A stretch of DNA of 64,000 bases, from positions 248,001-312,000 of the forward strand of contig NZ_JNKO01000001.1 of the NCBI RefSeq assembly GCF_000702885.1. The letters run 5' to 3'. Positions within the stretch are counted from its first letter, which is position 1; each line of letters begins with the position of its first letter. This document shows, piece after piece, positions 42,629-58,996 of the stretch. The DNA is from Oribacterium sp. P6A1. Its GTDB lineage: Bacteria > Bacillota > Clostridia > Lachnospirales > Lachnospiraceae. Below the pieces are notes generated by a model, which was not told the origin of the DNA, did no database searches, and worked only from the letters and a program-made list of their open reading frames with translations. The translations under genes and the position numbers were made by a program.

Positions 42629-43306
42629 TCACATGACAGCTTCAGCTATTGTCTCTTTAAGCTTATCAAAAAGCTCCTGCCTGTAGCTCATTGAGTTTTC
42701 TTTATCAGGTATAAAATAGTCAGGCATATCCTGTGGAGGTATCAGATACCCAGGAAAAACATCTGTGTCCGGTGAGCCTGCATCAGCACAGCTCCTGATT
42801 TCCTCTTCCACTATTTCTTCACAGATTTCTCTCATCACTTCATCGTTTCTTTCCGAAGCTCTTTCTTCTGTCATTCTGTCTGCCTTTTCTCTAAGCTTAG
42901 TAAGAAACTTAGTGAACTCATCCTTTCGATTCTCGAGATAAATGATATGTTCTGTTGAAACTATGGGGTAAAGCCCCATATGACTGAAAACAGGAAGATT
43001 TTTAGGCTTGGTGAAACCGACAAAATGAGCAGTTCCCTTACTGAACATGATCTCATAGAGCTTGGTCATCAGTTCATTCAGAAGTCCCTGTCCATGATGC
43101 CTTTCTGAAACTGCAACACACTTCAGTATTATACCACTAAGAGACCCTGTAGCTGCTATTTCACCGGTATCTTCATCCATGATGCATACTGTATGTGTGA
43201 TCTTTTCATCGTAATCAAGGCCTCTTTGTTTAAGAAAAGCCTTCAGTCTGTCAAGTTCCCTTCCCGAAAAGGGCTGACCCTCTGCAAAATATAAATTATC
43301 TGTCAT
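42629..43306 (-). CDS. CitC-like GNAT protein lacking the ligase domain
   Basis: A 225 aa protein related to the N-terminal third of CitC. KITHTVCIMDEDTGEIAATG, LKCVAVSERHHGQGLLNELM and MGLYPIVSTEHIIYLENRKD match the GNAT-like domain of the citC product, including the GQG acetyl-CoA loop. After residue 135 the nucleotidyltransferase domain is absent. It is replaced by a Glu-rich helical stretch and a tail (VFPGYLIPPQDMPDYFIPD) with no recognised family. The gene sits between citF and citX in the lyase operon with normal spacing, so it is expressed. It could be a modifying acetyltransferase for the lyase or a relic of a second citC. Confidence 0.75.
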   Translation of the reverse strand: MTDNLYFAEGQPFSGRELDRLKAFLKQRGLDYDEKITHTVCIMDEDTGEIAATGSLSGIILKCVAVSERHHGQGLLNELMTKLYEIMFSKGTAHFVGFTKPKNLPVFSHMGLYPIVSTEHIIYLENRKDEFTKFLTKLREKADRMTEERASERNDEVMREICEEIVEEEIRSCADAGSPDTDVFPGYLIPPQDMPDYFIPDKENSMSYRQELFDKLKETIAEAVM

Positions 43307-43401: not shown

Positions 43402-44964
43402 TCAGTTACTGAACTCAAACTTCTTGATCTGACGAACGACGTCCATGATAGTTCCATCACGTCCCTCGATGATACCAACTACACGATCACCGAACTGAAC
43501 CTTCTCTGGCTCGCCTGTGATGCTGTAAGCAATATCTCTGAGCTCCTCGATAGTCTTGAGAGGAAGTCCCTTATCCTTTGTAGCCTCGATAAGATCTGTT
43601 CTCTTAGGATTGATTGCGATACCGTAATCAGTAACAACAACGTCAACGTCCTCACCCGGAGTTGTAACAGTTGTACAATCTGTGCAGATTGTAGGAATTC
43701 TTCCCTGCATGATAGGTGCGATAACGATAGTACACTTAGCACCTGCAGCAGTATCAGGATGTCCGCCCTGAGCACCTGTGATGACACCGTCAGAACCTAC
43801 TACTACGTTACAGTTGAAGTGTGTATCAACCTCAAGAGCTGCAAGGATAACGAAGTCAAGCTTGTTAACATAAGCGCCCTTGTTGAAAGGATCAGCATAC
43901 TCACTTGCTGTGATGTAGTGATGGTTAGGATTTGTTGCAACAGACTTGATAGCATCCTGATCGAAGTCCTGTGTATCTACAAGAGTCTTGATGAGACCCT
44001 CCTCAAGGAGATCACACATTGGCTTAGCGATACCACCGACACCGAAGGACATGTGAATGTTCTTCTCTCTCATGATCTCAGCAAGGAACTTTGTTGAAGC
44101 GATAGAAGCTCCGCCGACACCTGTCTGATATGAGAAGCCTTCCTTGAAATAAGGAGTAGCTACAACGAAGTCTGTGCAGTACTTAGCCATGAGAAGCTTT
44201 CTCTGGTCTGTTGTAGGCTTTGCAGCACCTGTAGCGATCTTTGTAGGATCTCCGATCTCGTCAACCTTAACTACATAGTCAACATAAGTCTGTGTGATCT
44301 GTGCAGGAAGATTAGGGAATGGAACAAGTGTATCTGTAATAGCAACTACGCGGTCTGCATACATAGCATCTGCTGCTGAATATGAAAGAACACCGCAGTC
44401 TGCCTTACCGCCGTTAGCATTAAGGTTACCGTACTCATCTGCTGTAGGAGCACCGATAAATGCGATATCGATGTGAGTCTCGCCGCTCTCGATAGCTCTT
44501 GAACGTGCGCCGTGTGAACGCATGATAGCAAGTCCCTGAAGTCTTCCCTCTGAGATTGCCTTACCAATCTGTCCACGAACACCGGATGACTGGATCTCTG
44601 TGATTGTTCCGTCATCAAGCATGTATACGATAGGATCATTCTGGCTTCCAAGTGATGAAGCACATATTGTAATGTTCTTGATACCCATCTTATGTACTTC
44701 TTCCATAACCATGTTAAGAACCTTATCACCGTTACGGAAGTGGTGATGGAATGAAAGTGTCATGCCATCCTTGATTCCGCACTTAACAAGTACATCATGA
44801 ATATTGTCAACAAGCTTTGTGCCGTTTGAATTAATTACGCACTTTACCTTATGAGAAGCTGTCTGATACTCATAACCATCAAAGTGATGAGTACCCTGGA
44901 AAACTTCCTTACCTGTTGCCTTTAAGATTTCCTCAGGTATATCTCTACCAACTGCATTAATCAT
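43402..44964 (-). CDS. citF: Citrate lyase alpha subunit (citrate:acetyl-ACP transferase)
   Basis: A 520 aa CoA-transferase-like subunit that swaps citrate for acetate on the CitD thioester. Conserved blocks include LSFHHHFRNGDKVLN (about residue 70), GSQNDPIVYMLDDG, IGAPTADEYGN (about 170), QTGVGGASIASTKF (about 275) and VVGSDGVITGAQGGHPD (about 390). Full family length. It starts 3 nt after citE ends. AAGGGGG precedes the ATG. Confidence 0.96.
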   Translation of the reverse strand: MINAVGRDIPEEILKATGKEVFQGTHHFDGYEYQTASHKVKCVINSNGTKLVDNIHDVLVKCGIKDGMTLSFHHHFRNGDKVLNMVMEEVHKMGIKNITICASSLGSQNDPIVYMLDDGTITEIQSSGVRGQIGKAISEGRLQGLAIMRSHGARSRAIESGETHIDIAFIGAPTADEYGNLNANGGKADCGVLSYSAADAMYADRVVAITDTLVPFPNLPAQITQTYVDYVVKVDEIGDPTKIATGAAKPTTDQRKLLMAKYCTDFVVATPYFKEGFSYQTGVGGASIASTKFLAEIMREKNIHMSFGVGGIAKPMCDLLEEGLIKTLVDTQDFDQDAIKSVATNPNHHYITASEYADPFNKGAYVNKLDFVILAALEVDTHFNCNVVVGSDGVITGAQGGHPDTAAGAKCTIVIAPIMQGRIPTICTDCTTVTTPGEDVDVVVTDYGIAINPKRTDLIEATKDKGLPLKTIEELRDIAYSITGEPEKVQFGDRVVGIIEGRDGTIMDVVRQIKKFEFSN

Positions 44965-44966
44965 AA

Positions 44967-45872
44967 TTACAGATCCCCCTTATAAACTCCGGCAGCCTTT
45001 GCAAGCATGATGTTTCTCTTTGCACCGTCATAGAAAGCGATATCGATCATCTTTCCGTCAACAGTGAATACACCGATGCCCTTTGCCTTCTTGTCATCGA
45101 TTTCCTTGATAACCTTCTCAGCGAAGATGATTTCCTTCTGAGTAGGGGTATAAATATCATGAACGATATCGATCTGACGAGGGTTGATACATGACTTACC
45201 ATCAAATCCCATATCATGTATCATCTGTACTTCCTTACGGAAACCTTCCATATCATCAAGGTTTGTCCAAACTGTATCAAAGCACTGAACACCGGCTGCA
45301 CGAGCTGCGATGATCATCTGCTGACGAGCACCCATGAGCTCAACACCTGTTCCGGTGATACGTGTCTGAAGATCCTTTGTATAGTCACCGCCTGAAAGGG
45401 CAACACCGATCATACGATCTGATGATGTACATACTTCGTATGCATTCATAACACCCTTGCAGGACTCAAGAGCTGACATGATGAGAGTTGAACCCGGCTC
45501 TCTTCCGAACTCTTCCTCAGCTGCTACGATCTTCTCTTCAACCGCGCGAACCATGGAAGCATCCTCTGTCTTGGGGATACGGATAACATCTGCACCACCT
45601 GCTACGCAAACACGGATATCCTCTTCCCAGAGATCAGTATCGAGACCGTTGATACGTACTACACGCTCTGATCCTCTGTAATCGATGGTCTGAAGAGCAT
45701 GATAAAGAGAAAATCTTGCAGTATCCTTTGCAGTTACAGCAACGGCATCCTCAAGATCCAGCATGAGAGAGTCAATCTTGTAAATATACGGATCCTTAAT
45801 GAGTGAAGGCTTCTGAGCATTCAGGAACATCATGGATCTTCTTAATCTTTTCTTATTAGGATTCTCAATCAT
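44967..45872 (-). CDS. citE: Citrate lyase beta subunit (citryl-ACP lyase)
   Basis: Cleaves citryl-ACP to acetyl-ACP and oxaloacetate. It is 301 aa from the ATG at 45872, which has GGGAGG at 9 nt and overlaps the citD stop as ATGA. HpcH/HpaI-type TIM barrel: RRSMMFLNAQKPSLI at the start, SLMLDLEDAV with Mg-binding acidic residues (about 38), VVRINGLDT with the substrate arginine, ALESCKGVMNA with the metal glutamate (about 135) and ALSGGDYTKDL. It sits in the standard citDEF order. Confidence 0.95.
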   Translation of the reverse strand: MIENPNKKRLRRSMMFLNAQKPSLIKDPYIYKIDSLMLDLEDAVAVTAKDTARFSLYHALQTIDYRGSERVVRINGLDTDLWEEDIRVCVAGGADVIRIPKTEDASMVRAVEEKIVAAEEEFGREPGSTLIMSALESCKGVMNAYEVCTSSDRMIGVALSGGDYTKDLQTRITGTGVELMGARQQMIIAARAAGVQCFDTVWTNLDDMEGFRKEVQMIHDMGFDGKSCINPRQIDIVHDIYTPTQKEIIFAEKVIKEIDDKKAKGIGVFTVDGKMIDIAFYDGAKRNIMLAKAAGVYKGDL

Positions 45873-46168
45873 CTGATTGCACCTCCCCATGGTAAATCTT
45901 TATACTGGTCTACTGAACGGAACACAGCTCCCTCGATACGAGCCTTGATTGTGCAGTCAAGAGCGCCCTTATCAACGATGGAAATCTTTACGTTATCAAC
46001 GCCAAGATTTTTAAGTGTCTCAAGTGTTACCTTTTTGATCTGATTTCCGAACTGATGAGCAACTGCAGAGTCCAAAGTGAAATCGATCTTTCCCTCTCCA
46101 GGCTCAACAGTAACCTGGCAGTCACTGGATTCCATAGTGCCCGCTACAGCAGGTTTCTTAATTTCCAT
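45869..46168 (-). CDS. citD: Citrate lyase acyl carrier protein (gamma subunit)
   Basis: 99 aa from the ATG at 46168 (AAGGAGG precedes it; the ORF extension to 46213 has no site). The prosthetic-group serine lies in AGTMESSDCQVTV (about residue 12-13). It is the first gene of the cit operon and is translationally coupled to citE by an ATGA overlap. A long ~235-nt leader separates it from the predicted promoter. Confidence 0.94.
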   Translation of the reverse strand: MEIKKPAVAGTMESSDCQVTVEPGEGKIDFTLDSAVAHQFGNQIKKVTLETLKNLGVDNVKISIVDKGALDCTIKARIEGAVFRSVDQYKDLPWGGAIR

Positions 46169-46411
46169 AGTTTCCTCCTTGGATGCAGGATCTTTCCCCT
46201 TAATCCCGCGCAAACAATGTTACATAAAGTTCTTCTTACGATGAGTCTCTAAAGTCGCAAAATATGCGATAAAAGCGGCTTTTTGTCCTCATCATATTCA
46301 CATCCCACAGCGCTTAGGTTTCACGCCCCAACTACTAGCAATTATATCCTAGCAATGGTGGAATTTAAACTTTTTAATTGTAGTATTTTAATAATAATAC
46401 CCACGACGACC

Positions 46412-46618: not shown

Positions 46619-46650
46619 GAAAAAAAGCCCCGGACAGCTGTCCGGGGCTT
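46619..46650 (-). terminator. Terminator of hydratase gene 1
   Basis: AAGCCCCGGACAG pairs with CTGTCCGGGGCTT and is followed on the minus strand by T's. Confidence 0.9.
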
Positions 46651-46677: not shown

Positions 46678-48981
46678 TTATGCAAAATTCTTTGAGTGTC
46701 CGAACTTGTTAAAGTTGATGAGGCATCCGTCCTGAACGATCTGACGCTCATTAGGAGTCATAGGAAGAACATAAAGCTCTATCTCTATAGCCTTGCCCTC
46801 CTTTATTACATAAGCCTTTATTTCCTCAAGCTTATCATCCTGAAGCGCCTTCCTGATGCCAGGTACATAGATGTAATCATCTACATCGAACTTGTCAGGC
46901 TCTCCTTTGAGATGGAAAGGTACCATGCCCCAGTTCATACAGTTGGATCTGTATCTCTTTGTAGCATATTCCTGAGTGATATTAGCAAGTCCGCCAAGTA
47001 CTCTCTGACATGAAGCAGCCTGCTCACGGGCCGAACCATCACCCGGCTTGTTTGCGTAGATGGTTGAACCGATCTCTACGTCGGAAGCATTAACACCTTC
47101 CTGACCCGGAATTGTGTTGATAACCTTAAATACATCAGCGATCTCAGCAGGAACAGTACCCTTCTTTCGATTATCCTCAAGATCTCTTACAGCCTTTGCA
47201 CGGCCTACGTATTCAGGATCTCTTCTTGAAAGTGTGAACTCGGCGAGTCCCAGCGGATTTGATCTGTAGGACGAAGTCTCTCCTGAAGGAATGAGCTCAT
47301 CGGTTGTAGTAACAGGATCAAGAATCTTTGAAGCCACCTTGAGAAGGATGTTGTCTGTCATAGACTCCTGCTCAGGCCAGTCCTTGATGTTCGGTCCGAA
47401 ACGGAGCTCCTGATCCAGATCAGCCTTACCCCAGCCCTGATATAATCTGTTGCGGTAAGCCTTGTCATCATAGTTGTACTCAGGGATATCGCCCCAGCAG
47501 TCAAGCTCTTCAGCAGAAGTGAGCTTACCGCCATTAGCTGCTGTTGCAGCGATAGAACGTGCATCCATAAGACATACAGCTGACATCTGTCCGTTACCCG
47601 GCTTTGAACCCTCACGGTTAGGGAAGTTACGTGTTGTATGACGGATTGAAAGTGCGTTGTTGGCAGGTGTATCACCGGCACCGAAGCAAGGTCCGCAGAA
47701 TGCTGAACGGATGATAGCACCTGCATCCATAAGGTCTGCAAGAAGACCCTTACGGTCAAGATCTGTGTAAACAGGCTGTGATGACGGATATACGCTGAGA
47801 TAGAACTCACCGTCACCTATGCTCTTGCCCTTGAGTGCATGAGCCGCCTCAACAACGTTTGTATAGTTACCGCCGGCACATCCTGCGATGATACCCTGCT
47901 GTACCTGAAGCTTGTGATCCTTAGTGATCTTGTCAAGAAGTGTAAAGTGCGCTCTTCCTTCAGCTACTCTCTCGGCTTCCTTCTCTGTCTCACGAAGGAT
48001 ATCCTCAAGATTGTCATAGAGCTCTGTGATCTCGTATGCATTTGAAGGATGGAAAGGAAGTGCTATCATAGGACGAACCTCTGAAAGATCAACCTCTACG
48101 CAGCCGTCATAGTATGCAACCTGTGCAGGATCAAGCTTTTTGAAGTCATCCCCTCTGCCATGCATGGTAAGGAATGCCTTAGTATCATCGTCTGTTCTCC
48201 ATACAGATGAAAGACAGGTTGTCTCTGTTGTCATAACGTCGACACCGTTTCTGAAATCTGTTGTCATGGAAGATACGCCCGGGCCTACAAACTCCATTAC
48301 CTTATTCTTTACGTATCCGTTCTTGAATACAGCTCTCTCGATGGCAAGAGCAATATCATGAGGTCCTACAAACGGTGCAGGCTTTCCTGTAAGGTATACG
48401 CAAACAACACCCGGATATGCAACATCGTATGTCTGCTCAAGAAGCTGCTTTGAAAGCTCTCCGCCGCCTTCTCCGATAGCCATGGTTCCAAGTGCGCCGT
48501 AACGTGTGTGTGAATCTGATCCAAGGATCATCTTTCCGCCGCCTGCATACTTCTCACGCATAAACTGGTGGCAAACAGCTACATGAGGAGGTACATAAAC
48601 TCCGCCGTACTTCTTTGCAGCTGAAAGACCGAAATAATGGTCATCATCGTTAATGGTTCCGCCTACTGCACAAAGTGAATTGTGGCAGCATGTAAGAACG
48701 TAAGGAAGCGGGAACTTCTCCATACCTGAAGCTCTTGCTGTCTGAATGATACCTACGAATGTGATATCATGAGATACCATAGCATCGAACCTGATCTTAA
48801 GATTATCCATAGTATCACTTGTGTTGTGTGACTTCATGATACCATAAGCGATGGTACCCTTCTTTGCCTCTGCCTTATCTGCAGCCTTGCCAGTGAGCTG
48901 CTCAACCTTTGCTTCCTCTGCCTCGGGAACAAGTTCTGTTCCGTTTACCAGATATACGCCGCCTTCATGAAGCTTGACCAT
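46678..48981 (-). CDS. YbhJ-type aconitase-family hydratase (copy 1)
   Basis: A 767 aa [4Fe-4S] (de)hydratase of the aconitase superfamily. The three cluster cysteines lie in [12 protein letters not shown] (C368) and [10 protein letters not shown] (C429, C432), spaced as in aconitase. [13 protein letters not shown] (about 155) and SSYRSNP (about 555), [11 protein letters not shown] (about 630) and TKRYRSN contribute the active site. The overall form matches E. coli YbhJ, an uncharacterised hydratase. It has its own promoter with two LysR-type boxes and a terminator. Flanked by the tricarboxylate carrier and citrate lyase genes, it likely interconverts cis-aconitate, citrate and isocitrate. 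Substrate is inferred. Confidence 0.85.
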
Positions 48982-49162
48982 AATAAACCTCCTTAGTGAT
49001 ATCCCTTTGGGGGAACAACATTAAACATAAGAGCTCTTAGATACTAAGCAATCTATACAATATTTCACATTTATATCGATAACAAACATGTCTATTATAT
49101 CGCTTTTTTCTATTTCTCTGTGTTTTATTTTTTATGTATTTATTCTAATTTGACATGGCACA

Positions 49163-49241
49163 ATAGTAAAATATTTATATCTATATGCCAACTATAGGCT
49201 TATCCTATTGTATACATTTTGATGTATAGGATTGTACCTAT
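49163..49241 (-). promoter_or_regulatory. Hydratase 1 promoter with tandem LysR-type boxes
   Basis: On the minus strand TTGGCA (49186-49191), a 17-bp spacer and TACTAT (49163-49168) are present. ATAGG-N5-CCTAT at 49194-49208 begins 2 nt from the -35 box, exactly as in the cit promoter. A second, longer palindrome GTATAGG-N6-CCTATAC lies at 49224-49243, 32 bp (about three helical turns) further upstream. Confidence 0.7.
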
Positions 49242-49252
49242 ACCATATACAA

Positions 49253-49303
49253 TAAAAATGTACCGGTCTTACTTATAACCAGTTTTCAATAAAACCGGTA
49301 CTT
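49253..49303 (-). terminator. Terminator of the tricarboxylate carrier gene
   Basis: GTACCGGT pairs with ACCGGTAC and is followed on the minus strand by ATTTTTATTG. Confidence 0.75.
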
Positions 49304-49311
49304 TTAAATCC

Positions 49312-50577
49312 TTAGTAGAACAGTCCGCCGAGGTTAAATACTCCGAGAGCTGCCATAACTACATTGATAACAACGTTCATTACTGATAAGAGGAAAAGAG
49401 TTTTGAACATCTTGTTCATCTCATCTGTTGTTGTCTCCTTGGCTGCTGAGTAAGATGACATGATGATAGCACCGCCTGTCGAAAGAGGGCTGATAGCTGC
49501 AGCAAAAGATGTAGCTGTAACCGCCGATATAAGCTCTACATAGCTTACATTTGATCCGAATGTCTTAACAATGTTGTCACAGATAGGATAAAGTGTAGGC
49601 ATTACAACACCTGTTGTTGAACTCACCCATGAAAGAATACCTGAAGTAGCTGCCATAACAGGCGCTGCTGTATGCTCGTTCATATGTGCGCTTAAGAAAT
49701 CAGATACAAGTGTGATACCGCCGAGCTTGTCTATAACATTTACAAGTACGCCTACACCACAGATAAGCATCAGTGTTCCCCAGGGAATTGACTTGATAGC
49801 CTTCTTCTCATCTGCACATCCGAGAAGGATAAGTACTGCTGCTGCAACGAAAGCGAAAAGTCCTGTGTCAAGCTTGAAACCGATACATGCTACAACCATG
49901 ATAACGATTGCTGCAACAGTGATCTTCTGGTCTCTGTTAAATGCAGGGATATCTGAAAGCTTGAGAGGGTTGTCTCCCTTTACCTTGTAGCCTTTGTAGT
50001 AGATATAAAGGATAAGTGTGAAGACAAAGCCTGATAGAAGAGTTGTAAGGAAAAGATGAGTACCGAAACCTGTATATCCGAGAGGCTCGCTAAGGTTCTT
50101 TGCAAGAATACCCGTCATTGACAGTGTTGAAGCGCATCCTGCATTGGCACCGAGCTTTGCGTAAAGAGCTGTAGCCATGGGGTTGATATCAAGCTCAAAA
50201 GCAAGATATACAGCAAATGTTGTCATGAGGATTCCGGCAGCGATATGTCCGGGTCCGATGGCTGAAATAAATGCTGAAAGTGCAAACATGAGAATCGGAA
50301 TAAGATAAGTTCTCTTTCCTACGAGAGCTACGATTTTCTTTGAGAACAGGTCAAGTGTACCATTCTGTGAAGCCATTCCGAAGAAGAGGGTAACACCTAC
50401 AAGAGTTACAAACATGGAGCTTGAAAAGCCCTTTGAAATCTCTTTTGCGGTCATATCTCCCGCCATTCCGAGAACAAATGCTGCTCCGACTGAAAAGAAT
50501 CCGATGTTTATCTTCTTTATGAAGCCGACTGCCACCACGATAGCCAGTACGACAAGGGAAATCAATGCGAAATTCAT
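49312..50577 (-). CDS. MatC-like carboxylate carrier (ion transporter superfamily)
   Basis: A 421 aa membrane protein with about 11-12 helices. It begins MNFALISLVVLAIVVAVGF at the ATG at 50577, which has AGGAGAT upstream. The N-terminal half (NIGFFSVGAAFVLGM to SAIGPGHIAAGILM) matches the MatC dicarboxylate carrier N-domain. The C-terminal half carries the helix-break motif AAAISPLSTGGAIIMSS, as in ArsB/NhaD-type transporters. It follows the PrpF-family gene by 120 nt on the same strand. Context suggests a tricarboxylate such as trans-aconitate or citrate as substrate. Confidence 0.82.
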   Translation of the reverse strand: MNFALISLVVLAIVVAVGFIKKINIGFFSVGAAFVLGMAGDMTAKEISKGFSSSMFVTLVGVTLFFGMASQNGTLDLFSKKIVALVGKRTYLIPILMFALSAFISAIGPGHIAAGILMTTFAVYLAFELDINPMATALYAKLGANAGCASTLSMTGILAKNLSEPLGYTGFGTHLFLTTLLSGFVFTLILYIYYKGYKVKGDNPLKLSDIPAFNRDQKITVAAIVIMVVACIGFKLDTGLFAFVAAAVLILLGCADEKKAIKSIPWGTLMLICGVGVLVNVIDKLGGITLVSDFLSAHMNEHTAAPVMAATSGILSWVSSTTGVVMPTLYPICDNIVKTFGSNVSYVELISAVTATSFAAAISPLSTGGAIIMSSYSAAKETTTDEMNKMFKTLFLLSVMNVVINVVMAALGVFNLGGLFY

Positions 50578-50696
50578 AATATTTATCTCCTGAAATATTT
50601 GATGATCATTTACCTGTGCATCCCCTTCCCCGGGATACACAAGAATATGACGAAATATATGTATCTTTTTATCTATACTCTATGATTAAAATACTT

Positions 50697-51863
50697 TCAT
50701 CCCAGTCGTATGACTGCATTTCCTTCCATAATGAGGTTTGCAGTTCTGAAGCCAAAGGTATCATCTATCTTCGGCACATCAGGATTCTCTGTATTTTCCG
50801 CATAATCAACTCCACACTCAAGCACTCCGCTTGCATGTCCTATACGGATAAACTGTGTGTCAGTTCCCTTTGAAAGAACCTGATTGACCACACTTCCCTT
50901 TACAACTGCTGCTGCAGCAGTACACATGGCTCCTGTCATGGCGTAGCTTGGATGAGCCTTCTGCATCGACATCATTCTGGAAAGAAGGTCAATGTCTTCT
51001 TTCTTAATTTCCTTGCCGTCAGCTGTAACATAATCTGCTGATTCAGCAACAAATGTCATCTTCGGAATTCCCGGTGTCTCCCATGCTGACTTTGTATAGT
51101 CGTCAATGAGACCAAGCTTTACAGCCGCAAGACCTCTTACCTTCTCAAGAAGCAAAAGCTTCTCTTCATCACCGTTTATCTCATCAGGTGTTTCTCCGCC
51201 CTTAAGGCCAAGGTCTGAAGCTTTGGCAAAAACCAGCGGATTTGCCGCATCCACTATGGATACCTCTACCTTACCGTATCCCGGAACCTCCAGAACATCA
51301 ACAACATTTCCTGTAGGAAGAAGTCCGCTTCCCAGTGTTCCTGACGGATCAACAAACTTAAGCTTTATAGGTGAAGCAGTTCCGGGCACACCAGCGATGT
51401 TGAAATCGCCGTCGTACTGTACCTCTCCGTTACTGGTCTTTACTTCTTCAACGATTATTTTGTCTGTGTTTGTATTATATATACGTACGCTTGTAGTTCC
51501 TTCCTGAGCCTCTACAAGACCCTTTTCTATTGCGAAAGGTCCGACACCTGAAGAAATATTACCGCAGTTTCCTTTGTAACTTACTATTGGCTTATCTACC
51601 GATACCTGGGCAAATGTATAATCAACATCCGCATCAGGTCTGTCTGACTTTTTGATGATTGCCACTTTACTTGTAACGGACTGAGACCCGCCAAGTCCGT
51701 CTATCTGCTTTCGGTCAGGACTTCCCATCATTCTGAGAAGAACCTTGTCCCATTCGTTTTTATCCTTTGGAAGATCCTCTTCCAAAATATATACACCCTT
51801 GCTGGTTCCTCCTCTGATGATGGAAACCGGCAGCTTGATCATACCCTCATGCACTCCTGTCAT
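50697..51863 (-). CDS. PrpF-family aconitate/methylaconitate isomerase
   Basis: 388 aa with the two-fold epimerase (DAP-epimerase-like) architecture of PrpF. The start at 51863 is set by AAGGAGG; the ORF's first ATG is inside that site. Family motifs are SIIRGGTSKGVYI at the N-terminus, GNCGNISSGVGPFAIE with the conserved cysteine (about residue 100), MQKAHPSYAMTGAMC (about 300) and FRTANLIMEGNAV at the end. PrpF isomerises 2-methylaconitate and binds trans-aconitate, and the fungal relative Adi1 interconverts cis- and trans-aconitate. No 2-methylcitrate synthase or lyase is present here, so I favour aconitate isomerase. Confidence 0.85.
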   Translation of the reverse strand: MTGVHEGMIKLPVSIIRGGTSKGVYILEEDLPKDKNEWDKVLLRMMGSPDRKQIDGLGGSQSVTSKVAIIKKSDRPDADVDYTFAQVSVDKPIVSYKGNCGNISSGVGPFAIEKGLVEAQEGTTSVRIYNTNTDKIIVEEVKTSNGEVQYDGDFNIAGVPGTASPIKLKFVDPSGTLGSGLLPTGNVVDVLEVPGYGKVEVSIVDAANPLVFAKASDLGLKGGETPDEINGDEEKLLLLEKVRGLAAVKLGLIDDYTKSAWETPGIPKMTFVAESADYVTADGKEIKKEDIDLLSRMMSMQKAHPSYAMTGAMCTAAAAVVKGSVVNQVLSKGTDTQFIRIGHASGVLECGVDYAENTENPDVPKIDDTFGFRTANLIMEGNAVIRLG

Positions 51864-52270
51864 GCAAACCTCCTTCATATAGTCCCATACCCTGAAAAAC
51901 GGATACAGAAACAGCTAAAGTGACAGATTCCGTAAACCTTTTCACTTTTCGGAAATATCTCTCGCCGGGGGATGATGAGAGATATCTCCCTGAGTTTTCA
52001 ATGAACAGCGCGCATCTGTTTATCTATGTCTATAAAATACCATTTGTATTTTTATATATCCAATGCATTTATTCGATAAAATATATGCATTGGACGTATA
52101 CTTATACAATGACTTAAAATATAATAAGCCTGGATGGTTTTCCCGGGTTTATATTTCATCCGCCGGTAAACACATCTGCCGGTAAATATTTATTATTTTT
52201 ATAAAACACGGAAGGGAACTGCTACAGATGATTTATCTTTCCGGTTTTTAATGTTTCCAAAGGAGTTATC
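51864..52270. promoter_or_regulatory. Divergent regulatory region between prpF-like and lysR genes
   Basis: A perfect 10-bp inverted repeat, TCCAATGCAT (52059-52068) and ATGCATTGGA (52085-52094) with a 16-bp spacer, lies midway. Its left arm overlaps a candidate minus-strand -35 (TTGGAT) for the prpF-like gene. A strong stem-loop (51951-51963 pairing with 51977-51989, one mismatch) lies in that gene's leader. The arrangement fits LysR autoregulation with divergent activation. Confidence 0.65.
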
Positions 52271-53185
52271 ATGGATTTCAAAGATCTCACATACATCATT
52301 GCAATAGAAAAGTATGGCAATATCTCCAAAGCTGCGGAAGCACTGTTCCTTACCCAGCCTTCACTTTCAAGGTTTCTTCAGAATACCGAATCCCATGTAG
52401 GACAGCCTTTGTTCAATCGTATCGGAAACAAATATATTCCGACATATGTCGGACAACGCTATCTTGCAAGAGCAAAAGAAATATTGAATATAAAAAAAGA
52501 GCTGGATCAGGAAGTGGGAGACATTCTCAAAAATGATTCCGGTCTGCTGAATGTAGGATTCCCCGCCATGAGAGGCACCTATATGCTGCCCTGTACCCTG
52601 CCCATCTTCCACAGCCTGTATCCTAATGTGAGAATCCAGATACACGAAGCCAGTTCCAGCCATCTGAATGAACTGATACTGAACGGAGACATTGATCTTG
52701 CATTCTACAATCAGCCTGATGAGAATCCGAATATCGAAACAGAGGTCATCAGCCACGAGGAGATGGTTCTGGTAATGTCTCCGGAGAACCCTTTGTGCGA
52801 GTTGGCTTACCCTTTGGAAGGCTGCCGCTATCCTCACCTGGATCTTAAGCTCCTTGAAGAAAATGGTCAGGGAGTCATCATGCAGAACCCGAACCAGCGA
52901 ACCAGAACCATTGTGGACAGGCTCTTTAAACAGCATCATGTCACTCCCAACGTAATTCTCGAAACAAGCAATATCCGTGCCGAAGCCGAGCTTGCCTCCA
53001 GAAATTACGGTGTCTGCTTCATAACGGAAACTCATTTAAAGCACATGAAGCTTGATAAGCCACTAAGTTTCTTTTCAGTCGGAGATCCAAGTACACCCAT
53101 CAATTTTGTAGCGGCCTACAGAAAAAACAGTTACCTGCCCTATCATGCAACCGAGTATATAAAGATAGTCAGAGACTTCACTTAA
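52271..53185 (+). CDS. LysR-family regulator (divergent from the prpF-like gene)
   Basis: 304 aa. The N-terminal winged HTH is MDFKDLTYIIAIEKYGNISKAAEALFLTQPSLSRFLQ, followed by the LysR substrate-binding domain (about residues 90-300). It is divergently transcribed from the isomerase-carrier operon, the usual LysR layout. AAAGGAG precedes the ATG. It is the best candidate for binding the inverted repeat at 52059-52094, and perhaps the ATAGG-N5-CCTAT boxes at the hydratase and cit promoters. Confidence 0.93.
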   Translation: MDFKDLTYIIAIEKYGNISKAAEALFLTQPSLSRFLQNTESHVGQPLFNRIGNKYIPTYVGQRYLARAKEILNIKKELDQEVGDILKNDSGLLNVGFPAMRGTYMLPCTLPIFHSLYPNVRIQIHEASSSHLNELILNGDIDLAFYNQPDENPNIETEVISHEEMVLVMSPENPLCELAYPLEGCRYPHLDLKLLEENGQGVIMQNPNQRTRTIVDRLFKQHHVTPNVILETSNIRAEAELASRNYGVCFITETHLKHMKLDKPLSFFSVGDPSTPINFVAAYRKNSYLPYHATEYIKIVRDFT

Positions 53186-53267
53186 ACCGAAGCGGAATTT
53201 CTCTTTTTCCCATCCGTTTGGCTTATCCACGACATAAGTATTTGATTCCATTCAAAAACAATCTCAA

Positions 53268-53306
53268 AAAAAAGAGCAGCTCATCCTAAACCGGATGTCC
53301 TGCTCT
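53268..53306. terminator. Bidirectional terminator, lysR / secreted protein
   Basis: AGAGCAG..CATCC pairs with GGATG..CTGCTCT, with A-rich and T-rich flanks, between convergent genes. Confidence 0.7.
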
Positions 53307-53368
53307 TCTTCATTTTACGTATTTCTCAAAGATACCGATGCCCAAAATGATTTCGTTTTAAATTATGT

Positions 53369-53947
53369 TTAATCTATTTTTCCAAAATACTTTGTCACAT
53401 CAAATTCTACAGAGTACTCCCCTTCCCCTGCTCCTTCTTTAGATCCATAGGTTATAACGAGATTGTTTCCTGTGGAGAATTTCATGGATTCCGGCCAATA
53501 ATACCGGTTGTCTATGCTTTCCACCCTGCTTACGGTTTTCCCGTCTTTATCAATCACATAAAGATCAGGGCCATAATATCCACACATATAAAGTTTACCT
53601 GATGAGCTGAACACCCATAAAGCACTTGCTCCTCCGAAATCAGGATTCTCTTTTTTTACGGCCCCTGTCTCAGGATCAAGCATCATTACAGTTCCTCCAT
53701 GAAGGACATAGGCATAGCCGTTATTTATCCCGAGAAACTGGGATCTTGTCAATTCTGTCGCCGGTAATGGATCCAGATTTTTACTCCACATAATAGATCC
53801 ATTGGTCCTGTTTTTGCATGTCAAAGTACTGTATTCATAGCAGTCAACATATTTTATGTTCATGCTTATCTTTGGTTCAGCTGCAAAGATTGTTGTACAT
53901 AATCCCAAAATAAAGCCCACAATACCGATAACTATTTTCTTAAGCAT
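53369..53947 (-). CDS. Secreted protein with short beta-propeller-like repeats
   Basis: 192 aa with a signal peptide (MLKKIVIGIVGFILGLC, cleavage after FAA), so exported. The rest shows two or three PQQ/WD-like strands: GSIMWSKNLDP, VMMLDPETGAVKKENPDFGG and LYVIDKDGKTVSRVE. A complete propeller needs six to eight such blades, so this is either a fragment or a small derived protein. No cofactor residues are evident. It is not obviously linked to its neighbours; AGGGGGAAG precedes the ATG and a terminator follows. Confidence 0.65.
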   Translation of the reverse strand: MLKKIVIGIVGFILGLCTTIFAAEPKISMNIKYVDCYEYSTLTCKNRTNGSIMWSKNLDPLPATELTRSQFLGINNGYAYVLHGGTVMMLDPETGAVKKENPDFGGASALWVFSSSGKLYMCGYYGPDLYVIDKDGKTVSRVESIDNRYYWPESMKFSTGNNLVITYGSKEGAGEGEYSVEFDVTKYFGKID

Positions 53948-54078
53948 ATCTTCCCCCTCAAAAATAGTAAAGTTTGACTATTCCTTCCCAAACTTATTAT
54001 CGACGCCAGATCATTAATTATTAACTATTGTCGGTATCTAACCGCTTTGCACTCATATCTTAGTATAGAAAATCAAAT

Positions 54079-54129
54079 CAAAAAAACACAGAGGCCGCAC
54101 CAAGTTTTTCCTTGATAGACCTCTGTGTA
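54079..54129 (-). terminator. Terminator of the isocitrate dehydrogenase gene
   Basis: ACACAGAGG pairs with CCTCTGTGT and is followed on the minus strand by seven T's, about 140 nt past the stop. Confidence 0.8.
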
Positions 54130-54270
54130 CATTTTCCGGGAACAGCAGAATTTTGCACCCTGCCAACTCATTAATAAGCTTAATTTATTGCCTTACGCCC
54201 CTTCGTGCCTTTTGCCTGAATATCTTTTTATCCATCCTGCTTCCGGCACCCGGGATGCCATTCATATATC

Positions 54271-55314
54271 TTATGCAGCCATTGCGAGAAGCTTCTTAAC
54301 CTCATTAATCACAGCATCTGTGTACTCGGTTGTGGAAGCTTTTCCGCCGATATCCTTTGTTGTATGGATACCTTCGTCCATAACATTCTTGATAGCTGTA
54401 CGGATCATATCACCATACTCATTGAGTCCGATATGATCGAGCATCATACATGCTGACCAGAGGAATGCTGTAGGATTTGCTATATTCTTTCCTGCGATAT
54501 CAGGAGCTGAACCGTGCACTGCCTCGAACATGGCCATATCGGTTCCCACATTGGCAGAAGGCATAAGACCTACGCCTCCGATAAGCCCGGATGTAAGATC
54601 TGTGATGATGTCTCCGTAAAGATTCTCTGTTACCATAACGTCGAACTTTGAAGGATCAAGAACCAGATTCATGCAGCATGCATCTACGATCATGTCCTTT
54701 GCTTCGATATCCGGATAATCCTTTGCTACCTCATAGAATACATCCAGGAAAAGTCCGTCTGTAAGCTTCATGATATTGGCCTTGTGAATACATGTAACCT
54801 TCTTACGTCCGTTCTGTACTGCAAAATCGAAAGCTGAGCGGCAGATTCTCTCTGACTTGTCTCTTGTGATGATCTTGATGCTGTGCATCTCATTGTCTGA
54901 AATCTTCTCCTCAACTCCTGCATACAGGTCTTCGGTATTCTCACGGAATGTGACAATGTCTGTATTCGGGAATGGTGTCGGAACCGCTGAATTTGACTTC
55001 GCCGGACGGAAGTTTGCATAAAGATCATACTTCTTTCTCATTGTTACATTGAGAGAACGGAATCCCTTACCAACAGGTGTTGTGATAGGGCTCTTAAGAA
55101 GAACCTTTGTCTTTTCAAAAGATGTAAACGCATCATCAGGAATAAGCTTTCCGTTTCTGTTATACTCTGCTTCTCCCACATCAAATATCTCAAACTTAAC
55201 GGGAACATGTGCAGCCTGGAAAATGGCAAATACTGAATCTGAAATTTCAGGTCCGATTCCGTCGCCTCTGAAAAATGTTACTGTCTTTACTGCTTTGTCA
55301 TCTGCTGCTCTCAT
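54271..55314 (-). CDS. Isocitrate dehydrogenase, NAD-type (IDH/IPMDH family)
   Basis: 347 aa, the short form of the beta-decarboxylating dehydrogenases. [12 protein letters not shown] starts the fold. [14 protein letters not shown] (about residue 120) and the [16 protein letters not shown] arginine/serine substrate site favour isocitrate over isopropylmalate. [30 protein letters not shown] carries the metal aspartates, and [14 protein letters not shown] contacts NAD. It follows hydratase 2 (citrate to isocitrate) with about 285 nt between, and yields 2-oxoglutarate for glutamate synthesis. It has its own promoter. Homoisocitrate or tartrate dehydrogenase activity is possible but less likely here. 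Confidence 0.87.
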
Positions 55315-55430
55315 GGCTTACCTCCCGCTTCTTTGCTCTTTGTTTGTTCGTTTGTGTTAGATGTCAGTCAATATTTATGTTTGTTATCGGTTATCATCAA
55401 TATCAGCTAACTTAGTATCACGTTATTTTG

Positions 55431-55505
55431 GACTTGTTTCGTGTGTCCTTATCTCTTATGGTTCATATCATAAACCAGTAATAAAGACTTGTCAACCGTG
55501 TCCTT
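55431..55505 (-). promoter_or_regulatory. Isocitrate dehydrogenase promoter bracketed by 20-bp direct repeats
   Basis: On the minus strand TTGACA (55490-55495), a 17-bp spacer and TATGAT (55467-55472) make a near-consensus promoter. Two copies of AAGGACAC-N5-ACAAGTC occur at 55486-55505 (over the -35) and 55431-55450 (just past the start site), in the same orientation and 55 bp apart. They look like repressor sites. Confidence 0.7.
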
Positions 55506-55535
55506 ATTATTTTTCCGAATATCTCCTATAACGCA

Positions 55536-55567
55536 TAAAAAACGCGCTCCAAACAGAACGCGTTTTT
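55536..55567. terminator. Terminator of hydratase gene 2
   Basis: ACGCG pairs with CGCGT around a 12-nt loop, with T-runs on both strands. Confidence 0.7.
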
Positions 55568-55599
55568 CTTTCAAGTTTACGTTTAAAGACATATGAGAC

Positions 55600-57888
55600 T
55601 TATTTTTTGTAGTAATTGATGAGACTGCCGGAAATTATGATATCTCTTTCTTCCACCGTTAACTTATCAAGAGTAGCCTTAATGCTGCCTGTCCTGTGCT
55701 TTTCTATATCCGAAGCGCTGAGTCCTTTAAGCTCTTCTTCACTGTTCACTTCGAAATCACCGTCAAGAATCATGATTTCAGGCTCGCTTTCTCCGTTTTT
55801 CAGTATGCTTTTTATATCCTTGATATAAAGGTAAGATCCAACGGATATGTTCAGAGCCTCCTCTGTCCGGAGAGGAAGCAGTCCCCAGTTAATAAGATTG
55901 CTCCTGTAACGTTTTGTTGAGTACTCATTTGCAAGATTTGCAAATCCACCCAGAACCTTCTGACAGGATGCTGCCTGCTCACGGCTTGAACCGTCACCAA
56001 TCTGATCAGAGATCATGACAGACCCGAAGGTAACAGCATTGGCAGTTTCCTGAAGATTAGGTCTGGTACTTATGTCTCTTATTGCTTTTGCCAGAGGTAC
56101 ATACTGCGGATCTCTGGATACCATGGTATAGCCTGAGATCTTTTCAGGATTTGAACGATATGAGCTTATCTCTCCCGAGGGTATAAGCTCGTCTGTTGTA
56201 ACAGAGCCCTTATATGATCCTGCGACCTTCAGAAGAAGATCATCCTTCAGTCCCGTCATTTCAGGCCAGTCAGCGATATTAGGACCCTTGACTATTTCTG
56301 CATCGGGATCTGCATGTCCAAAATTGTCAAACACCTGATTTTCATAAATCTTTTTGTTGAAAATGTGCCTTATATCACGATATTCAACATCCTGAAGCTC
56401 TGTGGCAGCGGTAAGCCTTCCGCCGTTCCTTACGGTTGCAGCTATTGATCTTGCATCCATAAGGCACACCGCAGCCATCTGTCCCTGTGTAGGTTTACTA
56501 CCTTCACGGTTTGGATAGTTTCTTGTCACATGACGTATGGAAAGCTGGTCGTTGGCCGGAGCATCGGTTACTCCGAAGCATGGCCCGCATATACATGGAC
56601 GCATGGTAACACCTGCCTGTGCAAGTTCGGAACCTATTCCTCTGGTCATTAAATCTTCCATTATAGGAAGTGATGCCGGGTTCACATGAAGATTAAGCTC
56701 CTGTCCTTTAATTCCGTAAATCCCATTTCCGGTGCCTGATTTAAGAATGTCAGAAACAGCTACGATGTTCTCGAAAAGTCCTCCGGCACATCCGGATACC
56801 AGGGCCTGATCAGGATAGAATGCCCCATCTTTTATATGCTGCCTGAGGCTGAAAGGTTTTCCTTTATCTCCCTTTATTGCATTACCTGCATCCTCAACTT
56901 CTCTCAGAATCCTGTCCATATCAGATTTGAATTCTCTGATGCTCATGGCATGGGAGGGATGGAATGGAAGCGCGATCATAGGTTCTGCTGAATCCATATC
57001 TATTTCTATAAATTTATCATAGTAGGCGCCAGCCTCCGGTTCCAGTCTCTTATATGCCTCTGCTCTTCCGTGCTCCGCAAGGTACTCTTCCGTCAGCTCA
57101 TCCGTACACCATATAGAACTCAGGGCTGCGGATTCCGTAGTCATGACGTCTATGCCCATACGGAATTCCATGGAAAGATTTCTGATTCCCGGACCCATAA
57201 ACTCCAGAACATTGTTCTTGCAGAAACCATTGGAAAAAGTCTTTCCTATAAGTGAAAGCGCCACATCCATCGGACCTACTCCCGGCTTTGGACTTCCTGT
57301 GAGTCTTACACCGATTACCTTTGGATACGGAATGTCATAGGTATGTCCAACGAGCTGCTTTACCAGTTCTCCTCCGCCTTCTCCTATACCCATAGTGCCC
57401 AGCGCACCGTAACGGGTATGAGAATCTGAGCCAAGGATCATCTTCTCTCCGCCTGCCATCATTTCACGCATATACTGATGAAGCACTCCTCTGTATGGAG
57501 GCAGGAAGATACCACCGTATTTCCTGACATTGGAAAGACCAAATGCATGATCGTCCTCAAGAATGGTTCCGCCTACGGCGCAAAGTGTATTGTGGCAGTT
57601 TGAAAGCACATAAGGTATATTAAATTCCTTAAGTCCCGCAGCTCTCGCTGTCTGAAGGATATTTACATAATTGTTATCGGGAGAGACCATACAGTCAAAC
57701 CCGAGTTTCAGATTCTTCATGTCTCCGCTATGATTATGCCCGGACAATATCCTGTAGGCCATGGTTTTTTTACGGCCTTCTTCGACTTCCGAAGCATCTT
57801 CCGGAGCTCCCATCGGTCTTTCAGATAAGCCTGGAATCATCTCATACTTTTCATCAATAAAAACACCGTGATCAGTCAGTCTAACCAT
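55600..57888 (-). CDS. YbhJ-type aconitase-family hydratase (copy 2)
   Basis: A 762 aa paralogue of the hydratase at 46.7-49.0 kb, with the same layout. Cluster cysteines are in LVSGCAGGLFEN and CICGPCFGVTDAP, and [30 protein letters not shown] and [12 protein letters not shown] are retained. Compared with copy 1 the C-terminus differs and the cluster region reads GVTDAPANDQ instead of GAGDTPANN. It lies between isocitrate dehydrogenase and a LysR gene, all on the minus strand, so it probably serves as the biosynthetic aconitase. AAAGGAG precedes the ATG; a terminator-like hairpin lies just upstream of that site. Confidence 0.85.
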   Translation of the reverse strand: MVRLTDHGVFIDEKYEMIPGLSERPMGAPEDASEVEEGRKKTMAYRILSGHNHSGDMKNLKLGFDCMVSPDNNYVNILQTARAAGLKEFNIPYVLSNCHNTLCAVGGTILEDDHAFGLSNVRKYGGIFLPPYRGVLHQYMREMMAGGEKMILGSDSHTRYGALGTMGIGEGGGELVKQLVGHTYDIPYPKVIGVRLTGSPKPGVGPMDVALSLIGKTFSNGFCKNNVLEFMGPGIRNLSMEFRMGIDVMTTESAALSSIWCTDELTEEYLAEHGRAEAYKRLEPEAGAYYDKFIEIDMDSAEPMIALPFHPSHAMSIREFKSDMDRILREVEDAGNAIKGDKGKPFSLRQHIKDGAFYPDQALVSGCAGGLFENIVAVSDILKSGTGNGIYGIKGQELNLHVNPASLPIMEDLMTRGIGSELAQAGVTMRPCICGPCFGVTDAPANDQLSIRHVTRNYPNREGSKPTQGQMAAVCLMDARSIAATVRNGGRLTAATELQDVEYRDIRHIFNKKIYENQVFDNFGHADPDAEIVKGPNIADWPEMTGLKDDLLLKVAGSYKGSVTTDELIPSGEISSYRSNPEKISGYTMVSRDPQYVPLAKAIRDISTRPNLQETANAVTFGSVMISDQIGDGSSREQAASCQKVLGGFANLANEYSTKRYRSNLINWGLLPLRTEEALNISVGSYLYIKDIKSILKNGESEPEIMILDGDFEVNSEEELKGLSASDIEKHRTGSIKATLDKLTVEERDIIISGSLINYYKK

Positions 57889-57902
57889 GTTTTCTCCTTT
57901 AC

Positions 57903-57981
57903 AAAAATCCCTACAATCATAATTTGATTATAGGGATTTCGTAGTCATAAGTACAATATATTGAAATGTATGTTTATTATA
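57903..57981 (-). promoter_or_regulatory. Hydratase 2 leader: -10 box and terminator-like hairpin
   Basis: On the minus strand TATAAT (57976-57981) lacks a good -35. A stem AAATCCCTA.AATCA/TGATT.TAGGGATTT with a five-base loop (57906-57938) runs into TTTTTG, only a few nt before the AAAGGAG site. It could terminate lysR read-through or attenuate the hydratase. Confidence 0.6.
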
Positions 57982-58045
57982 GTTGATTTCTATTAAATAG
58001 CGGGTTTTCTATTGGATCAGACTCATACCTATCATTCCGGAACTC

Positions 58046-58996
58046 TCAGGACATCATCTCCGGCTTTATTCCCTGATATCTGGCAAACACCTCTCTCATG
58101 GTTCTTATGAGAGCCCTCTCCGCTTCATCCAGGTATACGTTTTCCTTATAGACGATGTTCACATCCCAGCTGTCGCTTTCCTCACTGTAATTGAAAACCT
58201 CAAAGCCTGCATTTTTCAGCGGTTCTATGGCCCTTTCCGGGACTATGGTGATTCCGAGGCCTGAGCTTGCGAGCTGTGTAGCCGAAATGCAGCTCGATAC
58301 CTCCATTATTTCCTTCGGAACAAAATCGAATCTTCTGAAAACATCATCCACCTTACGGCGTATATACTGACCTTTCTTCATAATGATGAAGGGAAAAACA
58401 TTGAGCTTACTTAAATCCACTTCAGGAATAGTTTCCTCGGTTCCGGGATTGATGATCATATCATCAGTTATCATGCCCTTTCCGGCAACAAGATACAGCT
58501 TTTCGGTATAGATATACTCGACATTCACTCCCGCAGGCAAATGTTCTTTCCCTCCCGGAAGTACACAGAATGCGATCTTATCATTCATCAGATTATTTAT
58601 TATTTCCTCTGATCTGGACTCCTGAAGATATATCTTGATGTTCGGATATATCTCCCTGAAGGCTCCTATGACTTTTGGAAGCATATATCCTGCACGCTCA
58701 GTCGGGATGCCTATGTTAATGCGCCCTTTCTTTCCGTGTCCGATATCCGAAAGCTCACGCCTCAGATTGTCCTTCAGCACCAGTATCTGTCTGGCTGTCT
58801 TGACATATCGTTCACCGGCATAGGTAAGAGTTATGGGATTAGTCTTTCTGTCAAAGAGCTTAACCCCGAGATCCTCTTCCACCTTTGAAATAATATAACT
58901 TAATGAAGGCTGTGAAATATACAGCTGTTTTGCTGCTTCAGTGACTGAGTGGTTATCGGCAACAGCAGTTATGTAAGTCAATTCTCTAAAATCCAT
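58046..58996 (-). CDS. LysR-family regulator upstream of hydratase 2
   Basis: 316 aa. HTH domain MDFRELTYITAVADNHSVTEAAKQLYISQPSLSYIIS, then a LysR substrate-binding domain (about residues 90-300). It is a paralogue of the LysR protein at 52.3 kb. Unusually for the family, it is co-directional with and directly upstream of its probable target (157-nt gap with a hairpin). AAAGGGATT precedes the ATG. Confidence 0.93.
   Translation of the reverse strand: MDFRELTYITAVADNHSVTEAAKQLYISQPSLSYIISKVEEDLGVKLFDRKTNPITLTYAGERYVKTARQILVLKDNLRRELSDIGHGKKGRINIGIPTERAGYMLPKVIGAFREIYPNIKIYLQESRSEEIINNLMNDKIAFCVLPGGKEHLPAGVNVEYIYTEKLYLVAGKGMITDDMIINPGTEETIPEVDLSKLNVFPFIIMKKGQYIRRKVDDVFRRFDFVPKEIMEVSSCISATQLASSGLGITIVPERAIEPLKNAGFEVFNYSEESDSWDVNIVYKENVYLDEAERALIRTMREVFARYQGIKPEMMS

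Follow-up and report, generated by a model that had tools for sequence, protein, structure and literature searches.

Which acid is handled by the isomerase, carrier and hydratase genes that adjoin the citrate lyase operon of Oribacterium sp. P6A1? The stretch of DNA analysed here (the window) comprises 64,000 nucleotides of contig NZ_JNKO01000001.1 (positions 248,001 to 312,000), of which positions 46678-58996 had been described in an initial annotation as a single candidate region for the anaerobic fermentation of trans-aconitate or other tricarboxylates. Four of its genes, LysR1 and the divergently transcribed PrpF1-MatC-YbhJ1, form a conserved cassette (LysR1<>PrpF1-MatC-YbhJ1), and we estimate at about three in four the probability that this is a trans-aconitate utilisation cassette feeding citrate lyase. 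Judged from its sequence, the gene set very probably imports the plant acid trans-aconitate and converts it to citrate, which would be split by the adjoining citrate lyase, and appears to be switchable. The genes named in the initial annotation (PrpF, a MatC-like carrier, two YbhJ genes, an isocitrate dehydrogenase (IDH), two LysR genes and the citrate lyase set) are all present by their profile scores, and those of the cassette lie as follows.

46678..48981, minus strand: YbhJ1, aconitase-type hydratase, predicted to interconvert cis-aconitate and citrate (NF008503 1342.9 bits, cut-off 641)
49312..50640, minus strand: MatC/CitMHS-type tricarboxylate carrier (PF03600 107.5 bits, PF07158 103.5 bits)
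50697..51878, minus strand: PrpF1, predicted aconitate (cis/trans) isomerase (PF04303 444.6 bits)
52059..52094, no strand: predicted LysR1 operator TCCAATGCAT-N16-ATGCATTGGA, in the divergent LysR1/PrpF1 gap
52271..53185, plus strand: LysR1, divergent cassette regulator (PF00126 and PF03466)

PrpF1 probably starts at 51863, preceded by AGGAGG, and YbhJ1 scores slightly below the cut-off of PF00694 (21.7 against 22.8 bits). On the 3′ side of YbhJ1, also on the minus strand, lie citD-citE-citF, a GNAT protein, citX, a citG-like gene and, further on, citC.

46625..46650, minus strand: terminator-like hairpin 3′ of YbhJ1 (11-pair stem with 8 G-C pairs, T run)
46341..46369, minus strand: promoter-like site 5′ of citD (10/12 consensus matches; shuffles give such sites about as often)
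45869..46213, minus strand: CitD, citrate lyase acyl carrier protein (ACP; TIGR01608 122 bits, cut-off 63.5)
44967..45890, minus strand: CitE, citrate lyase beta subunit (TIGR01588 372.8 bits, below the cut-off of 443.4)
43402..44964, minus strand: CitF, citrate lyase alpha subunit (TIGR01584 687.4 bits, cut-off 501.45)
42629..43306, minus strand: GNAT protein with only N-terminal resemblance to CitC (TIGR00124 positions 13-133 of 335; PF00583)
41968..42540, minus strand: CitX, holo-ACP synthase (TIGR03124 173.8 bits, cut-off 105.25)
40823..41875, minus strand: CitG-like triphosphoribosyl-dephospho-CoA synthase (TIGR03125 244 bits, below the cut-off of 272.3)
36877..38022, minus strand: CitC, citrate lyase ligase (TIGR00124 286.2 bits, cut-off 262.1)

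The genes of the known operon citCDEFXG, with citG as a citG-like gene, are found here; unlike that operon, the cit genes of the window have no citrate carrier above cut-off among the scanned genes, and their neighbour is the aconitate cassette. Of the genes scanned next to the cit operon, MatC alone is a carboxylate carrier above cut-off; 39034-40830 gave a sub-threshold match to the major facilitator superfamily (MFS). From the presence, conservation and order of the genes, the operator and the residues, which were observed directly, we infer all of the activities. LysR1 would sense the imported acid at the conserved operator, MatC would import the tricarboxylate, PrpF1 would isomerise trans- to cis-aconitate by an allylic proton shift, as its family chemistry suggests, and YbhJ1, an Fe-S hydratase of the aconitase fold with a variant active site, would hydrate cis-aconitate to citrate, as its context suggests. 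Citrate lyase, probably in its own transcription unit just downstream, would then yield acetate and oxaloacetate, which is the established chemistry of its family.

A search of other genomes for the joint occurrence of YbhJ, PrpF, MatC-like and cit genes, as the initial annotation had proposed, found the cassette to recur, including in Acidaminococcus fermentans. In the species-level genome collection, YbhJ1 is closest to that of two Oribacterium isolates (92%), and the Oribacterium loci L015 and L020 hold the same block LysR1<>PrpF1-MatC-YbhJ1-citDEF-citX-citG (identities to the window: LysR1 92-93%, PrpF1 87-88%, MatC 95-97%, YbhJ1 92%). In A. fermentans VR4 (G624), tblastn places the four genes at about 731-737 kb in the same order with a divergent regulator (LysR1 61%, PrpF1 70%, MatC 81%, YbhJ1 68%), and the same arrangement is seen in L180, L182, L187 and L191; L195 has it too, with one dehydrogenase gene added. 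According to the passages of PMC3035267 on this pathway, which cite Hartel & Buckel 1996, A. fermentans can rely on trans-aconitate as its only source of energy, fermenting it by way of citrate, oxaloacetate and pyruvate, and Acfer_0630 (MatC) and Acfer_0631 (aconitase domain) are assigned to it; the position of the cassette fits these two genes. The Table 6 passage of that paper names no isomerase gene. Unlike in the window, the cit genes of A. fermentans (Acfer_0408-0410 in PMC3035267) lie at a distance from the cassette. The cassette is a gene-level candidate for this anaerobic pathway, which was characterised by biochemistry in A. fermentans during the 1990s.

PrpF and citrate lyase also occur together with an ordinary aconitase in place of YbhJ (L126, L199, L201, L211, L237) and, in L189, with YbhJ and a YbhI-type carrier; the L126 operon runs citC-citDEF-citX, ordinary aconitase, PrpF, with no YbhJ. 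Together with A. fermentans, this exchange of hydratase and carrier families next to PrpF and citrate lyase gives the best evidence for the order of the pathway. In L139 (1953-8790), PrpF has LeuCD-like genes as neighbours, together with citDEF-like genes of low identity (35-45%) that may encode a lyase acting on another hydroxy acid. In G179, which keeps citrate lyase next to YbhJ, broken PrpF pieces were seen (C1:2258763-2259787 and 2329180-2329275) besides two full-length copies.

PrpF was also surveyed in 250 genomes of the Negativicutes, the class to which Colibacter massiliensis belongs; the class and phylum names of the sampled relatives are in part inferred. Matches were found in 53 genomes, in 69 rows, of which two fragments in G735 were dropped, and the surroundings of all 67 remaining places were fetched (L226 and L228 are counted here and absent from the tree below). 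Within 5 kb of PrpF there was YbhJ in 23 places, an ordinary aconitase without YbhJ in 15, only LeuCD-like genes in 17 and none of these in 12. As about one YbhJ or fewer would be expected there by chance (an estimate from the few YbhJ copies and genomes of 1.3-6 Mb), PrpF and YbhJ adjoin in this sample more often than by chance.

We then built a PrpF tree from 100 extracted proteins, that of the window and three of solved structure. PrpF1 and the A. fermentans protein share a 14-member clade (support 0.99), with YbhJ within 8 kb in 11/14, a MatC carrier in 13/14 (12 at ≥60% identity) and citrate lyase in 4/14 (window, L015, L020, L053). E. coli YbhH groups with the gallate-pathway tautomerase from a Klebsiella plasmid, and this group joins, with a modest support of 0.74, a clade that mostly stands beside aconitase or YbhJ and YbhI-type carriers, of whose loci L189, L199, L201, L211 and L237 also have citrate lyase nearby.

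The LysR1/PrpF1 gap carries the predicted operator, whose general form, AATKCAT-N16-ATGMATT, is palindromic. Among 14 such gaps, of which three (L025, L053, L136) are long and contain other genes, it is exact in six, namely those of the window, of L015 and L020 and of three Negativicutes (G624, which is A. fermentans, G633 and G649), and it has no exact copy elsewhere in 264 sequences (3.19 Mb), barring second fetched copies of the same gaps. When one mismatch is allowed, L182 becomes the seventh gap with an operator and A. fermentans gains a second site; at that tolerance, a set of mononucleotide-shuffled gaps yields 0.02 matches.

YbhJ probably acts as an aconitase, since 13 genomes have no aconitase-family gene besides it, and eight of these have both citrate synthase and an IDH-family gene. 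In these 13/13 genomes YbhJ is the only PF00330 gene, citrate synthase is found in 9/13 and a PF00180 gene in 12/13; PF00180 also holds LeuB, yet the 13 show no LeuC. Twelve were selected for a single aconitase-family match in the class sample (G023 and G084, of 14 such genomes, were omitted), and their sole-aconitase status rests on draft genomes that are 73-100% complete where stated. In the thirteenth, C. massiliensis, IDH, citrate synthase and YbhJ are adjacent, and YbhJ is the only aconitase-family gene found. YbhJ is above the NF008503 cut-off in 63/245 sampled genomes of the window's class and is present in E. coli; the cassette makes the function of the family directly testable. The family is not tied to trans-aconitate: among the best 80 of 510 YbhJ loci, citrate synthase is in the stretch in 12, PrpF in 11 and an IDH-family gene in 13, and citrate lyase is near YbhJ in nine besides the window (L077 and L138 are apparently one contig). 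The clades that surround E. coli YbhJ in the tree contain citrate synthase/IDH loci (node supports 0.68-0.92).

We next looked at 20 aconitase active-site positions in 119 aligned YbhJ sequences, with a numbering that we take to be that of the pig enzyme. The three [4Fe-4S] cysteines, H101, H147, D165, S166, H167, E262, R447, R452, D568, R580, S642 and R644 are kept in 119/119, while N258 is replaced by Val in 109 and Thr in nine, and Q72 by His in 105, Tyr in nine and Pro in five. The predicted YbhJ1 fold matches mitochondrial aconitase end to end (Foldseek ranks 1-7, TM 0.69-0.71, about 780-800 columns). Of the features of canonical aconitase, YbhJ hence has the cluster cysteines, R447, R452, R580, S642, R644 and the four-domain fold, and lacks D100 of the D100-H101 pair. 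We regard YbhJ as a putative aconitase-like hydratase with a variant active site and do not call it a canonical aconitase, because the D100 position is altered in all 119 and other positions are changed.

PrpF-type aconitate isomerases and trans-aconitate assimilation are already published, as the relevant sections of PMC11495376 make clear. These describe that tarR-tarAB of Bacillus velezensis FZB42 (a regulator, a PrpF-type isomerase and a carrier) assimilates trans-aconitate, and predict that assimilation of this type is widespread, naming Acidaminococcus and Peptoniphilus ovalis. There, a regulator stands beside an operon with a PrpF-superfamily isomerase and a carrier, with a shared promoter region and a carbon-source logic. 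The cassette is similar in its PrpF-superfamily isomerase, in which K73 and C107 of Shewanella PrpF (SoPrpF) are kept as K71 and C105, and in its divergent LysR1 with a conserved operator, TarA being likened to PrpF1 by published description. It differs in its carrier, which is MatC/CitMHS (PF03600/PF07158) whereas TarB is classed as MFS, and in that cis-aconitate there enters the tricarboxylic acid (TCA) cycle, whereas a dedicated YbhJ hydratase and citrate lyase follow here.

E. coli ybhD-ybhH-ybhI-ybhJ already shows the PrpF-carrier-YbhJ arrangement, with a LysR gene divergent from a PrpF-type isomerase, a carrier and YbhJ. E. coli YbhJ is 69% identical to YbhJ1 and YbhH only 38% to PrpF1; the carrier there is YbhI, and no citrate lyase lies alongside. 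Passages of PMC9068703 link these genes to growth on L-malate, and passages of PMC4054840 link ybhJ to NADPH and H2O2 stress, the mutant having low NADPH and peroxide sensitivity. In an excerpt of PMC10972114, ybhJ is placed by annotation between cis-aconitate and isocitrate, and its transcript was up 18-fold in algal co-culture. None of these passages gives enzymology of YbhJ. Among the open-access papers listed, we found neither a four-gene cassette with a shared operator across two lineages, nor the cassette beside a citrate lyase operon, nor the sole-aconitase argument for YbhJ, nor its altered Asp100 position.

Several findings weigh against a trans-aconitate cassette feeding citrate lyase, and are given here or with the alternatives that they favour. 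Asp100 is held important for aconitase from mutational work on the pig enzyme, and its position, before H101, is Cys in 119/119 YbhJ; the aligner opens a one-residue gap there relative to ordinary aconitases, and an ungapped alignment to 1aco also gives Cys. In addition, N446 is Thr in 119/119 and S643 is Ala in 115/119. The active-site loops of the YbhJ1 structure model, including that of the D100 position, are of low confidence, and the model is therefore uninformative on Cys99. A passage of PMC4054840, citing Blank 2002, names YbhJ a catalytically inactive aconitase paralogue. The experimentally tested isomerases TarA and TbrA stand outside the set of the PrpF tree. Seven of the 14 LysR1/PrpF1 gaps have no operator even when one mismatch is allowed, and one-mismatch copies also occur at three places other than the gaps (L199, L201, L247). 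In the samples of the window's own class and family, YbhJ lies within 8 kb in only 3/17 PrpF places outside the window's own genome (G000), and the other 14 have only an ordinary aconitase in two, LeuCD-like genes in six and none in six. The link between PrpF and YbhJ is hence weaker in the window's own class and family than among the 67 places of the survey above. PrpF genes beside YbhJ or aconitase are also found in the sister group of the SoPrpF clade (L238, L239, L242). Lastly, the own genome holds three PrpF (PrpF1 to PrpF3), three YbhJ and one ordinary aconitase, as well as two LeuC-like genes.

The relation of the cassette to the cit genes also counts here, as a strong terminator-like hairpin and then a promoter-like site, whose TATAAT lies within a block conserved in two Oribacterium loci, separate YbhJ1 from citD. 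The cassette and the cit genes, adjacent as the initial annotation noted, are probably transcribed separately. We considered a single transcript and rejected it on account of these two sites. No second operator site was found in the window, including near the cit genes, even at two mismatches, and the cit genes and YbhJ2-IDH (see below) are therefore probably outside the control of LysR1; LysR1 control of either was rejected on this ground.

It is unlikely that the cassette serves another tricarboxylate (4-oxalomesaconate, 2-methylaconitate, homoaconitate or a lactone-forming hydroxytricarboxylate), to which PrpF1 and YbhJ1 would be tuned. PrpF proteins vary in substrate, with E. coli YbhH sister to the gallate-pathway 4-oxalomesaconate tautomerase, the D100 position of YbhJ is altered as described, and a lactonase adjoins the paralogous PrpF2 and PrpF3 modules. 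However, no PF10282-type lactonase homologue was found in the window, and the physiology of A. fermentans, the citrate lyase near YbhJ in nine of those best 80 of 510 loci and the retention of R580 in all 119 aligned YbhJ argue against it.

We find it quite improbable that YbhJ1 feeds citrate lyase from isocitrate or cis-aconitate with PrpF1-MatC as a separate unit that merely lies alongside. Both halves of such an arrangement occur on their own, which also counts against the trans-aconitate route, in that YbhJ is near citrate lyase without PrpF1 in L016, L034, L047, L057 and L085, and PrpF1-MatC is without nearby YbhJ in L133 and L135. The four genes LysR1<>PrpF1-MatC-YbhJ1 are nevertheless kept together in Negativicutes whose fetched stretches lack cit genes (L177, L180, L182, L187, L191).

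A cassette that makes and exports trans-aconitate, like TbrA/TbrB of Bacillus thuringiensis, would suit the reversibility of PrpF-type isomerases, which favour trans-aconitate formation (as stated in a passage of PMC11495376), but is very improbable given the adjoining citrate lyase and the same cassette in a known consumer of trans-aconitate.

There is hardly a case for PrpF1 being the 3-methylitaconate isomerase (Mii) of a nicotinate-type fermentation, a reading which we rejected. The best-scoring solved relative of PrpF1 is indeed this isomerase (3g7k), a point against the aconitate reading, but PrpF1 lies outside the 3g7k clade, whose 29 loci have LeuCD-like genes within 8 kb in 22 and YbhJ or an ordinary aconitase in none. 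Equally poor is the case for PrpF/AcnD of a 2-methylcitrate cycle, rejected as well: for it speak the PF04303 membership of PrpF1, its TIGR02334 score (339.3 bits) and a PrpB-family gene above cut-off in an Oribacterium relative (G549), and against it the TIGR02334 cut-off of 440.55, which is missed, the position of PrpF1 outside the SoPrpF clade (the third clade) and the gene content of G000, where, as the initial annotation had it for the region, no 2-methylcitrate synthase or lyase gene was found, there being one citrate-synthase-family gene, on another contig than the window, and no PrpB-type lyase above cut-off (best 23.5 bits, cut-off 31.5).

The route from trans-aconitate to cis-aconitate (PrpF1), citrate (YbhJ1) and citrate lyase, which the initial annotation had put forward, is the best-supported reading, because the cassette is found in A. 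fermentans, PrpF1 is outside the Mii and propionate clades, PrpF and cit genes occur with either YbhJ or an aconitase, and YbhJ is alone in 13 genomes. If YbhJ is active, aconitase annotation would change in many gut anaerobes, and the aconitase active site would tolerate the loss of Asp100. A wider proposal, to which we give somewhat less than an even chance, is that YbhJ is a second kind of single-chain aconitase, active with Cys for Asp100 and the sole aconitase of many anaerobes, that E. coli K-12 ybhHIJ is a dormant tricarboxylate pathway, and that the three PrpF/YbhJ pairs are parallel routes, those of PrpF2 and PrpF3 perhaps for lactone-forming acids.

The remaining genes of the region, with a PrpF gene at the right edge, lie as follows.

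54271..55314, minus strand: IDH, second module (PF00180 345.3 bits)
55600..57888, minus strand: YbhJ2, divergent YbhJ paralogue, second module (NF008503 954.6 bits, cut-off 641)
58046..58996, minus strand: LysR2, second-module regulator (adjoins YbhJ2 in L016 and L141)
63863..64000, minus strand: PrpF3, second-module isomerase, right-edge gene running beyond the window to 65008

YbhJ2-IDH-LysR2, transcribed in the order LysR2, YbhJ2, IDH, and the edge PrpF3 appear to form a second module outside the linear trans-aconitate path. Of the single region first proposed, PrpF1-MatC-YbhJ1-LysR1 remains and YbhJ2-IDH-LysR2 with PrpF3 is set apart, following the precedent of L016; the second PrpF gene suspected at the right edge is real, PrpF3 extending from 63863 onward. 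PrpF3 probably belongs with YbhJ2-IDH, because in L016 its gene starts within 2.7 kb of LysR2-YbhJ2-IDH (YbhJ2 there being split over two open reading frames). YbhJ2 is in a small clade whose three other tree members adjoin PrpF3, and the YbhJ3-type genes in the tree adjoin PrpF2 in 9/9 cases. In L045, L071, L082, L090, L092 and L094, citrate synthase and YbhJ are accompanied by an IDH with 64-69% identity to that of the window. The window IDH had been called NAD-type; we assign it as an IDH of either NAD or NADP type, because its score is below the cut-off of every NCBIfam model listed. Its presence beside YbhJ2 suggests isocitrate as one end of the YbhJ2-IDH conversion, and the module, with PrpF3, may draw isocitrate to 2-oxoglutarate. 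The three PrpF/YbhJ pairs look like parallel systems for related acids.

The PrpF2 pair is on another contig of the own genome (C10; L013:4530-8480), where PrpF2, a small gene (VOC-like by eye, with no Pfam match) and the third YbhJ stand in a row, with genes for a D-glutamate cyclase and a LysR protein next to them. Several loci carry a seven-bladed lactonase (PF10282), next to PrpF2-YbhJ3-MatC-like modules as well as next to PrpF3 and/or an ordinary aconitase (L178:3029-4228, which is A. fermentans, L179, L183, L184, L188, L190, L192, L194, L138, L077, L038, L238), hinting that the substrate of these modules may be a lactone-forming hydroxytricarboxylate. E. coli pgl, presumably of the same Pfam family, adjoins ybhD-ybhHIJ. 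A gene for an MmgE/PrpD-type dehydratase (40-42% to the L129 copy) is close to PrpF2 in L183, L184, L185, L188 and L192, in 4/5 also beside YbhJ3.

Elsewhere in the window, the GNAT protein (42629-43306) sits between citF and citX though a full citC is present at 36877-38022, and the gene between LysR1 and IDH (53369-53947) encodes 192 residues that match no Pfam family and, by eye, have a signal-like stretch at the N-terminus. An Rfam scan of the window gave no match, and no tRNA was found in it. Beyond citC, 26270-36585 holds GH67, GH120 and esterase-like genes, a hemicellulose locus that fits a hemicellulose user. A rumen or gut niche for the host is plausible, since these genes lie beside the cit genes and trans-aconitate is abundant in some grasses (as noted in a passage of PMC11495376).

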